Source: Bacillus sp. Marseille-Q1617
GTDB lineage: Bacteria; Bacillota; Bacilli; Bacillales; Bacillaceae_B
Length of the DNA: 64,000 nt
Direction of reading: 5' to 3'
NCBI RefSeq assembly: GCF_903645295.1
Contig: NZ_CAHJXM010000003.1
Coordinates: 682,001-746,000, forward strand
The notes beneath the pieces are model-generated. The model was not told the DNA's origin, searched no databases, and saw nothing but the letters and a program-made list of their open reading frames with translations. Positions 5,887-33,762 of this stretch are shown here, one piece after another (the stretch's first letter is position 1; each line of letters begins with the position of its first letter). The translations under genes and the position numbers were made by a program.

Positions 5887-5943
5887 GAGGGAGGCTCACC
5901 AACCGCCCGCGGAAAGCGAAGTTTTGTTACGGAAATCATTAGC
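5887..5943. repeat. Right half of the interrupted intergenic repeat
   Basis: GAGGCTCACC...CCCGCGGAAAGCGAAG followed by CGGAAATCATTAGCGG matches the second half of the intact copy at 41387-41517. With 3981-4062 it rebuilds one complete element of about 139 bp. Confidence 0.75.
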
Positions 5944-6039
5944 GGTATTAAGGGACTACTCTGAAGTTGTTGGTACTTTTGTGTTGGTTTTTTAATTTTT
6001 GTCCCCTCCGCTCTTTATTTCAAAGCTCCTTTTTTGCAG

Positions 6040-12463: not shown

Positions 12464-12609
12464 CTTATCTACCCCTTAAAAGAATGCTTTCCTTTAATAC
12501 GTTCGAATGATCGAAAAAGTTTCAATGAAGTTATTCTAATTGTAACAGAATGCAAGGCAAGGTCATACTGGGGCACTAACTAAAAATCGATCTTAATTAC
12601 TGTAAGGAA

Positions 12610-12638
12610 TTGACTACATTCTTTCAATTTAATAACAT
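12610..12638 (+). promoter_or_regulatory. Candidate sigma-A promoter before the hairpin array
   Basis: TTGACT (12610-12615), a 17-bp spacer and TAACAT (12633-12638). If used, its transcript would run through all nine hairpin units before reaching the carboxypeptidase gene at 13834. The remainder of 12464-12690 shows no gene. Confidence 0.35.
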
Positions 12639-12690
12639 TTCCGGAATATATGATTAAAGTTTCAGCTTTTTTGATAAAATGTTTTAGTGA

Positions 12691-13806
12691 AAAGAAAAGC
12701 GGAGGCGGCTCGCTCAGAGGCGACAAGCATAAGACAGGGCAGCCATAAAGGCGCTCTTTGCCTTTCTGGATGGCATGACTTATGTCTCGAGCCTCTAGCC
12801 GCCGGAGCTGGACAAAAGAAAAGCGGAGGCGGCTCGCTCAGAGGCGACAAGCATAAGACAGGGCAGCCATAAAGGCGCTCTTTGCCTTTCTGGATGGCAT
12901 GACTTATGTCTCGAGCCTCTAGCCGCCGGAGCTGGACAAAAGAAAAGCGGAGGCGGCTCGCTCAGAGGCGACAAGCATAAGACAGGGCAGCCATAAAGGC
13001 GCTCTTTGCCTTTCTGGATGGCATGACTTATGTCTCGAGCCTCTAGCCGCCGGAGCTGGACAAAAGAAAAGCGGAGGCGGCTCGCTCAGAGGCGACAAGC
13101 ATAAGACAGGGCAGCCATAAAGGCGCTCTTTGCCTTTCTGGATGGCATGACTTATGTCTCGAGCCTCTAGCCGCCGGAGCTGGACAAAAGAAAAGCGGAG
13201 GCGGCTCGCTCAGAGGCGACAAGCATAAGACAGGGCAGCCATAAAGGCGCTCTTTGCCTTTCTGGATGGCATGACTTATGTCTCGAGCCTCTAGCCGCCG
13301 GAGCTGGACAAAAGAAAAGCGGAGGCGGCTCGCTCAGAGGCGACAAGCATAAGACAGGGCAGCCATAAAGGCGCTCTTTGCCTTTCTGGATGGCATGGCT
13401 TATGTCTCGAGCCTTTAGCCGCCGGAGCTGGACAAAAGAAAAGCGTAGGCGGCTCGCTCAGCCCCGACAAGCATAAGATGAATGGGCCGGGAAGGCGTTC
13501 TCTGCCTTCTTGGACCATTAAGCTTATGACCTCGAGGGGCTAGCCGCCGGAGCTGGACAAAAGAAAAGCGGAGGCGGCTCGCTCAGAGGCGACAAGCATA
13601 AGACAGGGCAGCCATAAAGGCGCTCTTTGCCTTTCTGGATGGCATGACTTATGTCTCGAGCCTCAAGCCGCCGGAGCTGGACAAAAGAAAAGCGTAGGCG
13701 GCTCGCTCAGAGGCGACAAGCATAAGACGGGGCAGCCATAAAGGCGTTCTTTGCCTTTCTGGATGGCATGGCTTATGTCTTGAGCCTCAAGCCGCTGGAG
13801 CTGGAC
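12691..13806 (+). repeat. Array of nine tandem ~124-bp hairpin units
   Basis: Units begin (at GGAGGCGG or GTAGGCGG) at 12701, 12825, 12949, 13073, 13197, 13321, 13445, 13570 and 13694. Spacing is 124 bp, except 125 for the seventh. Each is an extended imperfect inverted repeat with nested arms GGCGGCT/AGCCGCC, AGAGGC/GCCTCT, CATAAG/CTTATG, GCCAT/ATGGC and AAAGGC/GCCTTT. Units 1-5 are essentially identical; 6, 8 and 9 carry a few changes. Unit 7 differs strongly but keeps the pairing, having AGCCCC/GGGGCT, AATGG/CCATT and GAAGGC/GCCTTC instead. The array ends 28 bases before the carboxypeptidase start. No protein is encoded here. Confidence 0.95.
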
Positions 13807-13833
13807 AGATTGACGACACAGGTGGGTGGACAG

Positions 13834-15012
13834 ATGAAAAAAACGATCACGCTGATGATCATCATGCTTTTCTGGGTGTCTTCACCCATGGCATCAGCTC
13901 AGGAAAATAAAGCCAATAAGCCGGATACACTTTTCAGTAAATCGGCTGTCTTAATAGATTCCGGGACAGGAAGTGTCCTTTACTCAAAGAATGCCCATAA
14001 AAAAATGAACCCTGCGAGTATAACTAAGGTCGCAACAGCTATATATGCGCTTGAGCACACCAGCCTGGATGAAACCGTCACAGTCAGTGATCGTGCTTCG
14101 AAAACAGAAGGCTCCACGGTTTATTTGCTAGCCGGTGAAACCATTTCGATGCATCAGTTATTGCAAGGACTAATGGTCAATTCTGGAAATGATGCTGCAG
14201 TAGCCATAGCAGAGCATACAGAAGGATCTGTAGAGGCCTTCATGAAAAAATTGAACGAGTTTTTAAGGGATGAGGTGGGTGTAAAGAATACTCACTTTGA
14301 CAATCCTCATGGGCTTTATGACGAAAACCATTATACGACAGCGTATGATATGGCAGAAATAACAAGCTATGCTTTAAAGAATGATGCTTTTAAACAACTT
14401 TTTGATATTGGTATGATGAATTGGTCTTCTGAGGGATGGAAGACAACCCTTTACAATCATCATAAAATGGTCAAGGGTGAATTACCTTATCCCGAAGTGA
14501 CTGGCGGTAAGAATGGTTTTGTACCTGAAGCTAATCATACGCTTGTTACTTCTGCAGAAAATGCTGGTTTATCGGTTGTTGCAGTGACGATGAATGCACA
14601 AAGTAAGCGGGCCATTTATGCAGACACCAAATCCCTGTTGGATTACGGATTGAAGCAGTTTATGCGTACCTATGTATCCAAGGATAGTGAATTTCAGACA
14701 AGCAGCGAATCGTATCAACTACCATCTGATTTTCATTATACAAAGCACCTTAACGAAACAGTAAATGAGGTGGTCGATCAAGATGGCATCCTCACGATTT
14801 ATAACGGACAAAACGAAAAAATAGCTTCCACGAAGCTTAAAGCTGCTCATATCTCTGCTAAAAAACAGCAAGATGTACTGGCATCGAGCATTCATGGGAT
14901 GAAAAAAAGTGATGTGTCGGATTCGGCCGTATTTTACCCTCTATTTCTTTACTTGATCATCTTGGTAATGGCTGGGATTTCCATGATGAAAAGAAGGGAA
15001 CGCGAGCTTTAG
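13834..15012 (+). CDS. D-alanyl-D-alanine carboxypeptidase (class C low-mass PBP, S11)
   Basis: 392 residues from the ATG at 13834 behind GGTGGGTGGA; the frame is open into the last repeat unit but the signal peptide MKKTITLMIIMLFWVSSPMA sets the start. The serine active site is ASITK (SxxK, near residue 61) and the second motif is SGN near 116. The third motif reads GGKNG where the family normally has KTG, so Asn replaces Thr. A C-terminal membrane helix (FYPLFLYLIILVMAGISMM) is followed by basic residues. It trims the terminal D-Ala of peptidoglycan stem peptides outside the membrane. It resembles DacF, but the genomic context differs from dacF-spoIIA. Confidence 0.88.
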   Translation: MKKTITLMIIMLFWVSSPMASAQENKANKPDTLFSKSAVLIDSGTGSVLYSKNAHKKMNPASITKVATAIYALEHTSLDETVTVSDRASKTEGSTVYLLAGETISMHQLLQGLMVNSGNDAAVAIAEHTEGSVEAFMKKLNEFLRDEVGVKNTHFDNPHGLYDENHYTTAYDMAEITSYALKNDAFKQLFDIGMMNWSSEGWKTTLYNHHKMVKGELPYPEVTGGKNGFVPEANHTLVTSAENAGLSVVAVTMNAQSKRAIYADTKSLLDYGLKQFMRTYVSKDSEFQTSSESYQLPSDFHYTKHLNETVNEVVDQDGILTIYNGQNEKIASTKLKAAHISAKKQQDVLASSIHGMKKSDVSDSAVFYPLFLYLIILVMAGISMMKRREREL

Positions 15013-33366: not shown

Positions 33367-33554
33367 TTCTATGAAACCTCCTGCAGCTTTTTTGCTGCTG
33401 TAATGTGGTAAAGGTATATCAGAATGAACAAATTTTATCATTTTCATTGACGGTTTGACAATCAAAAAAATGTCTAGATTATATAAAAATGTATTTACCT
33501 GAACGCAGACGCTCCTGTATAATTCATGTGAACGGAAAATTACATAGTTGAATG

Positions 33555-33730
33555 ATCGGGTGAAGCGGAGTATGTTTTCATATTCCTGCGCTTCTTAAAA
33601 GGGAAGTTGGTGCAACTCCAACGCGGTCCCGCCACTGTAAATGGGAGCAAGCTGCAATAAGCCACTGTACATAGGTACGGGAAGGGGCAGCAAGCAATGA
33701 CCATGAGCCAGGAGACCTGCCTGACATCTT
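33555..33730 (+). ncRNA. Cobalamin riboswitch
   Basis: The conserved core is clear: TTAAAAGGGAAGTTGGTGCA, then ACTCCAACGCGGTCCCGCCA with CTGTAA, a GGGAAGGGGCAG stretch, and the closing box AGCCAGGAGACCTGCC at 33706-33721. These are the hallmarks of the B12 element binding adenosyl- or other cobalamins. It lies ahead of the btuF-btuC-btuD operon and a hairpin with T7 (33823-33848), so high B12 should end transcription before the genes. Confidence 0.95.
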
Positions 33731-33762
33731 TGACACTGGTACTACGCGGATGGGAAAGTGTA

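Follow-up and report, generated by a model that had tools for sequence, protein, structure and literature searches.

The nine-unit hairpin array in front of dac in Bacillus sp. Marseille-Q1617 probably arose when a dispersed, non-autonomous hairpin repeat of the REP/BIME/bcr kind, widespread in the order sampled, was amplified locally in tandem. The array lies in a window of 64,000 nucleotides, the whole stretch of DNA analysed, to which coordinates refer unless a locus (L) is named. In the favoured explanation some activity would insert units, at the focal site without a target duplication of at least 5 bp, and tandem copies would then come from slippage or unequal exchange. Selection would act on the + strand when it is folded in single-stranded form, either RNA or ssDNA, with the stems staying paired as the sequence drifts, and would bear on lineages still propagating rather than on each resident copy. 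A type-A unit and a unit of the unit-7 type may have landed near the dac transcription start, with type A expanding recently. We infer mobility and its mechanism, the mechanism of expansion and any effect on dac.

TRF delimits a tandem repeat at 12690-13807 with a period of 124, 9.0 copies, 93% matches and a score of 1962. The initial annotation described nine head-to-tail units of 124 bp, once 125 bp, with units 1-5 near-identical, and TRF and BLAST agree with this description. Unit 1 (type A, 12690-12813, +) was delimited by both programs. Units 2 (12814-12937), 3 (12938-13061), 4 (13062-13185) and 5 (13186-13309) follow on the same strand and are each 100% identical to unit 1 by BLAST. Also on the + strand, units 6 (13310-13433), 8 (13559-13682) and 9 (13683-13806) are 98.4%, 99.2% and 94.4% identical to unit 1 by BLAST. 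Unit 7 (13434-13558, +) is the 125-bp unit and belongs to another subfamily; its identity to unit 1 is 78.3% by BLAST and 74.6% by global alignment. Because the nine units are near-identical, their number could be an assembler miscount. The array had been called neither CRISPR nor coding, and indeed the units abut without spacers and the ORF list holds no ORF of at least 100 aa inside the array. Extended mechanically to its greatest length, the dac ORF starts at 13768, within unit 9.

Unit 1 folds into one long interrupted hairpin at -53.4 kcal/mol, versus a shuffle mean of -40.9. With RNA parameters the z score of the + strand is -3.1 (2/200 shuffles equally good), and the other strand folds likewise (z -3.8, 0/200). 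The conserved unit ends are AGAAAAGCG and AGCTGGAC. Comparison of the 5' end, AAAAGAAAAGCGG, with the reverse complement of the 3' end, GTCCAGCTCCGG, revealed no terminal inverted repeats; the inverted arms of the unit are internal. No Rfam 15 family matches the array at gathering level. The sole gathering-level match in the whole window is a Cobalamin riboswitch at 33541-33738 (+, 116.6 bits), and matches to HBV_PRE and CRISPR-DR6 in a relaxed search are sub-threshold and were taken as chance.

The gene dac (13834-15012, +) encodes a D-Ala-D-Ala carboxypeptidase (Peptidase_S11, Pfam PF00768, E 1.1e-53). Its RBS-like sequence AGGTGGG (13820-13826, +) reads AGGTGTG in the relatives inspected. 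The gap between array and gene is short, as annotated, and counts 27 bases before the ATG at 13834 rather than 28. A predicted extended -10, TGATAAAAT, lies at 12672-12680 (+) and is conserved here in 16 relatives inspected, which bears out the annotated promoter-like site at the upstream edge of the array. A possible -35, TGATTA (12651-12656, +), stands 18 bp before the -10 and recurs upstream of it in the same 16 relatives. In 13/16 the -10 box reads TG(G/A)TAGAAT, and the relatives' extended -10, TG-N-TAGAAT or TG-N-TAAAAT, is followed by the RBS and the start codon. The promoter scan gave a further promoter-like site, TTGACT-17-TAACAT, at 12610.

The dac protein relatives found, at 19 loci, come from Rossellomorea and close Bacillaceae. 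In 16 relatives inspected of these 19 the dac promoter region is continuous and the homogeneous array is absent. By blastn against L001, L002 and L007, window positions 12688 and 13807 are contiguous in the empty site, at 5973/5974. Relatives continue straight from the left insertion junction (12688-12690, +) to 13807. The insertion starts 8 nt past the conserved -10 box, which the window keeps, and its flanks of 29 and 30 nt share no direct repeat of at least 5 bp, though a shorter duplication may be present. MAFFT global alignment of insertion and empty loci was misleading, and the flanks alone were read from it. Six other gaps were also aligned, and in none was the empty site as clean, since leftover or replaced sequence persisted. 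The array had also been said to lack a transposase, and this holds among the five neighbouring proteins scanned, which Pfam identifies as Na/H exchanger, TelA, PF10112, Peptidase_S11 and cupredoxin-like.

The unit belongs to a large dispersed family. In 18/19 close genomes BLAST found 28-104 matches to the unit each; the remaining genome had 2. A covariance model, R1, built on 53 copies, matches 36/36 genomes of a family sample at E 1e-4, including G025 with a single weak match that is gone at E 1e-5. It also matches 149/199 genomes of an order sample and 40/299 of a class sample, where no more than 18 and 12 candidates per genome, respectively, were scored and copy numbers are lower bounds. 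Counted over the whole genome, G009 has 106 units in 52 clusters (106/121 matches, 15 weak ones that overlap a better match on the opposite strand being left out) and G020 has 112 units in 66 clusters. Among low-copy genomes, 16/17 searched matched at E 1e-5, and the 13 loci read have single copies at several different places. Two of these places are inside essential operons: between the ATP synthase gamma and beta genes in L254, a position shared by L257 from a second genome, and between gyrB and gyrA in L262. Neighbours in these genomes are mostly housekeeping genes (ATP synthase, gyrase, PheT, glutamate synthase), and no common partner gene emerged from 10 proteins scanned across the 13 loci. 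A blastn search of 72,556 plasmids with the unit matched only one Cytobacillus plasmid and none from the B. cereus group, and phages gave no match. Among the papers listed by literature searches of an open-licence library, none names the family in its title or the opening of its abstract. Among 87 units of G009 no pair from different loci reaches 95% identity, so movement in that genome is not recent.

Several features of individual loci were observed. At L001 7140-7480 and L007 7340-7385, mini-units keep the conserved ends without most of the hairpin middle. Several arrays of G003 and G016 end in a cut-off unit that stops after ~40-55 bases and so retains just the 5' hairpin half. The arrays at L211 3952-4122 and L080 9186-9439 start 4 bases past the 3' end of tRNA-Gln on the same strand, an identical place in two species. 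Another dispersed palindromic repeat occurs at 5890-5952 of the window and downstream of dac at L002 7189-7233 and L007 7260-7320; in L002 and L007 it is trailed within ~45 bases by a unit or remnant.

One possible source of mobility is a host RAYT (Y1 HUH) transposase that would move the unit as ssDNA in the manner of a REP/REPIN-like element. The hairpin form, the insertion without a target duplication of at least 5 bp, the selection on a single (+) strand and the replication-strand bias of arrays all fit such a mobiliser, and Y1_Tnp is present in 19/19 close genomes. In the order sample 128 genomes have both repeat and Y1_Tnp, 21 the repeat only, 31 Y1_Tnp only and 19 neither, a positive association at P=8e-4 when kinship is ignored. 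Against it, the repeat was within 1.5 kb of none of the 30 Y1 loci examined of 50 matches (searched with the unit at E 0.01 and with end patterns), and no high-copy repeat was found in the flanks of these 30 loci compared with four 400-kb pieces and the window. Moreover, 21/149 repeat-bearing genomes have no Y1_Tnp match, ten of them with at least 18 repeats, and in the favoured orientation the poorer-folding strand serves as lagging-strand template. Some REPs, of the CGTC type, are also reported in PMC3733652 without a flanked transposase, which counts in favour of a RAYT-driven element. We consider such an element unlikely, and the Y1 transposase was rejected as mobiliser on its lack of linkage in the loci examined and its absence from the 21 genomes. 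A phage-type integrase (PF00589, E 1.7e-34) at L258 2227-3120 (+), ~600 bp from a unit and past tRNA-SeC, was likewise set aside as a partner and read as a separate element. L244, from another genome, has the same SelB-like neighbour, tRNA-SeC and unit, with no integrase seen among its ORF starts.

Covariation across the family was examined with a consensus fold of 29 pairs on 134/140 unique copies, from which copies of an outlier subfamily were left out. Its cells comprise 3389 Watson-Crick, 286 G.T, 34 A.C and 177 other or gapped combinations. Covariance analysis of the kind proposed in the initial annotation was run against a phylogeny-aware null, in which Fitch substitutions were re-placed on a FastTree tree (20 nulls, our own R-scape-like script). 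Covariation exceeds this null: at E <=0.05 there are 6 column pairs and 6/6 are pairs of the fold, the other 23 fold pairs lying above that value. Compensatory changes occur at 22/33 pairs. In an order-wide alignment of 48 rows (47 distinct), which was fitted to the model and leans towards it, 92.7% of cells are paired, two-sided change occurs at 31/33 pairs, and the covariation score is 0.697 versus 0.079-0.150 for slid registers. Selection on structure across the repeat family is supported by these sequence comparisons.

The two strands differ in the mismatches they would tolerate. Among 166 unique units there are 363 G.T and 39 A.C cells, or 154 and 38 without the two pairs whose consensus is G.T; these cells come from related copies and are not independent events. 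The G.T:A.C ratio is 272:34 in copies opposed to the replication fork (101:33 without those two pairs) and 91:5 in copies aligned with it (53:5). Since the direction is the same in both, the G.T excess is not a replication mutation bias. The order-wide ratio is 103:16, or 60:16 without the G.T-consensus pairs. With G.T far above A.C, the + strand is the folded, selected strand. DNA parameters also fold the + strand better in 162/166 units. These results suggest that the + strand is kept foldable as a single strand, with which RNA and ssDNA are alike compatible.

The inference of selected structure had originally been drawn from unit 7, where three arms were said to have changed with pairing kept. 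It stands for the family as a whole and fails as local compensation in unit 7. Two of the arm changes are in the sequence, AGAGGC/GCCTCT to AGCCCC/GGGGCT and AAAGGC/GCCTTT to GAAGGC/GCCTTC. Whether the third, GCCAT/ATGGC to AATGG/CCATT, is seen depends on how the arms are registered; in place of GCCAT/ATGGC as one arm, the predicted fold of unit 1 uses an interrupted CA.CCA/UGG.UG. Rather than a locally compensated mutant, unit 7 is a member of a separately dispersed subfamily, matched at 91% identity by a unit at L298, at 90% by one at L300 and at 89% by one at L294, all of them other loci in other species. Because close copies of unit 7 exist at other loci, the three-arm 'compensation' reflects two dispersed subfamilies. 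The differences of unit 7 most likely arrived ready-made. Four loci, three in G007 and one in G002, have units 95-96% identical to unit 1; the G002 locus is the ortholog of one of those in G007, and flanks like those of the window occur at none of the four.

At L286, L288, L289, L296, L297, L298 and L301, unit-1-like and unit-7-like units occupy the same position inside copies of another palindromic repeat, whose homology extends for ~40-90 bp to either side of the unit. Either repeated insertion at one site or a swap of the inner module could place two subfamilies at one position.

Changes within resident copies were counted in 10 hand-chosen ortholog pairs, a small and partly nested sample from which 4/14 had been left out for a different unit or a re-used partner. 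There was 1 compensated change, with 14 one-sided changes that keep the pair, 25 that break or make a pair and 3 unpaired in both. When a degenerate copy and a divergent one are set aside, the same classes count 1, 11, 11 and 1. Single resident copies, to judge from these pairs, do not look structurally constrained in place. With almost no compensation in situ, the covariation is no proof of a leader function at dac.

Such a function would make the array a dac 5' leader in which nine mRNA hairpins modulate carboxypeptidase expression through stability, termination or translation. Its placement speaks for it: the array sits in sense orientation between the conserved extended -10 and the dac RBS, 8 nt past the -10, and a transcript would have the sequence of the folded strand. 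Given the usual spacing from -10 to start, a transcript from the dac promoter would start a few bases from the left edge of the array, and the dac leader, if transcribed, would contain nine hairpins. A side effect of the array on dac is likely; an evolved role in dac mRNA is not demonstrated by the covariation. It is quite unlikely, since the array is absent at dac in the 16 relatives inspected of 19, whole-genome counts put the same repeat at 52 places in G009 and 66 in G020, the 10 ortholog pairs have no excess of compensated changes, and a scan of 12465-13840 found no terminator-like site.

Templated palindrome correction by hairpin template switching, in place of selection on structure, is a highly improbable source of the stem changes: stems do change as whole blocks between lineages, and just 3% of unit pairs drawn from different arrays of one genome agree over a five-column stretch of the upper stem, but such correction would perfect G.T wobbles, yet these are kept in 101/134 and 85/134 copies at two positions, and would convert unpaired internal loops, yet the loops are conserved, and G.T lies strongly above A.C.

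Unit order was compared over 70 non-redundant arrays elsewhere, with the window left out and 6/77 dropped as duplicates. Adjacent units have a median identity of 80% (n=128), with 10% of pairs at >=97%, versus 90% (n=58) and 29% for units two apart; units of different arrays in one genome are 78% identical (n=1830). When unit order was shuffled in the 31 arrays of at least 3 units, adjacent identity was below expectation (0.812 vs 0.841, 0/1000) and identity two apart was above it (0.883 vs 0.844, P 0.004). The stems of several long arrays, not all, follow ABAB or ABCAB patterns. Exceptions are one homogeneous array of six in G001 and like neighbours in G016, L176 and L188. The window array is atypical in that it is non-alternating, lies in a divergent gap and is fork-aligned by skew. 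Its near-homogeneity is as expected from a recent burst.

Arrays also have a preferred orientation. In 101 clusters with gene context, arrays of at least 2 units are opposed to the fork 47:10 and singles 24:20; for the 400-kb pieces and for the window, GC skew indicated which way the fork runs. In the whole genomes, with dnaA mapped, the opposed:aligned ratio is 40:12 in G009 (arrays 20:5, singles 20:7) and 40:26 in G020 (P 0.11; arrays 18:7, singles 22:19), where the terminus was set at half the genome length. Singles of G009 share the orientation bias, which thus extends beyond arrays. Gene direction correlates with fork direction, and the two separate only weakly, at convergent gaps (arrays 15:3, singles 4:5). 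Some loci are orthologous across the species used, so that the counts are partly non-independent. With genes from a simple longest-ORF caller and without expected shares of gap types, clusters run antisense to both neighbours in 46 cases and sense to both in 23, and 27 are convergent and 5 divergent. In 13/18 convergent-gap arrays, some of which are orthologous pairs, the unit has its 5' end between -2 and +6 nt relative to the sense gene's stop codon, which the first bases of the unit can complete. A nested/non-nested split by a crude motif rule gives 34/88 nested. A simple reading of the bias is that units would be lost faster when the better-folding strand is the lagging-strand template. 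Insertion bias and gene orientation are alternatives, and the singles of G009 speak for one of these.

A bolder proposal, which we consider rather unlikely, is that the family represents a new mobile class that travels as one folded strand, without terminal repeats, a long target duplication or a Y1 gene of its own, and with heterogeneous arrays whose survival depends on orientation. If so, unlike neighbours that do not pair would persist and identical neighbours would be purged. Arrays would survive mainly in the orientation that makes the poorer-folding strand the lagging-strand template, and the nine-fold array of the window would be a fresh, unstable expansion before diversifying. The fold is present in 149/199 genomes of the order sample, or roughly three quarters, in up to ~110 copies, yet Rfam 15 has no match to it in the window. 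Alternating arrays, a strand-specific fold and an orientation bias make the family a tractable system for the expansion and survival of hairpin repeats at the replication fork, and the focal copy offers a clean with/without comparison at one promoter.

Comparison with known systems places the family among short dispersed repeats. As a single-strand structured element it has covariation beyond phylogeny and strand-specific tolerance of G.U. MITEs are short, non-autonomous, high-copy elements with terminal inverted repeats and a target site duplication. The present family resembles them in being short, non-autonomous and high in copy number, but it has no terminal inverted repeat at its very ends. 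The one clean site, the focal one, has no target duplication of at least 5 bp and may have a shorter one. Like the REP, BIME and REPIN sequences described in PMC3733652 and PMC6006769, the units are extragenic palindromes in high copy and often grouped. Most REP families are reported there to prefer heterodimers over homodimers, which resembles the alternation in the present arrays. The present unit is a single hairpin of ~122 bp, whereas REPs are described as palindromes of 20-40 bp; its arrays run head-to-tail, whereas REPs often form an inverted doublet; and the described REP end tag, GTAG or CGTC, is not matched by its conserved ends. The REP/REPIN transposase gene is described as flanked by the repeat, unlike the Y1 genes examined here, although CGTC-type REPs are an exception (PMC3733652). 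The bcr1-bcr18 repeats of the B. cereus group are described in PMC6542083 as interspersed repeats of 100-400 bp with mobile features, bcr1 having 11-130 copies per genome; the first BCR element is given there as restricted to the group, with mobility tied to a TTTAT motif. The present family is likewise an interspersed repeat in Bacillus relatives and, judged by description, would be set apart from bcr by its presence in 149/199 genomes of the order, unlike the group-restricted BCR. Bhal-1 and Bhal-2 of B. halodurans, compared by description (PMC2267715), are also stem-loop repeats in a Bacillaceae genome and differ in their length of 74-76 bp. Lacking defining features of REPs and the terminal repeats of MITEs, the present family nevertheless works like REP/BIME or bcr-type repeats.
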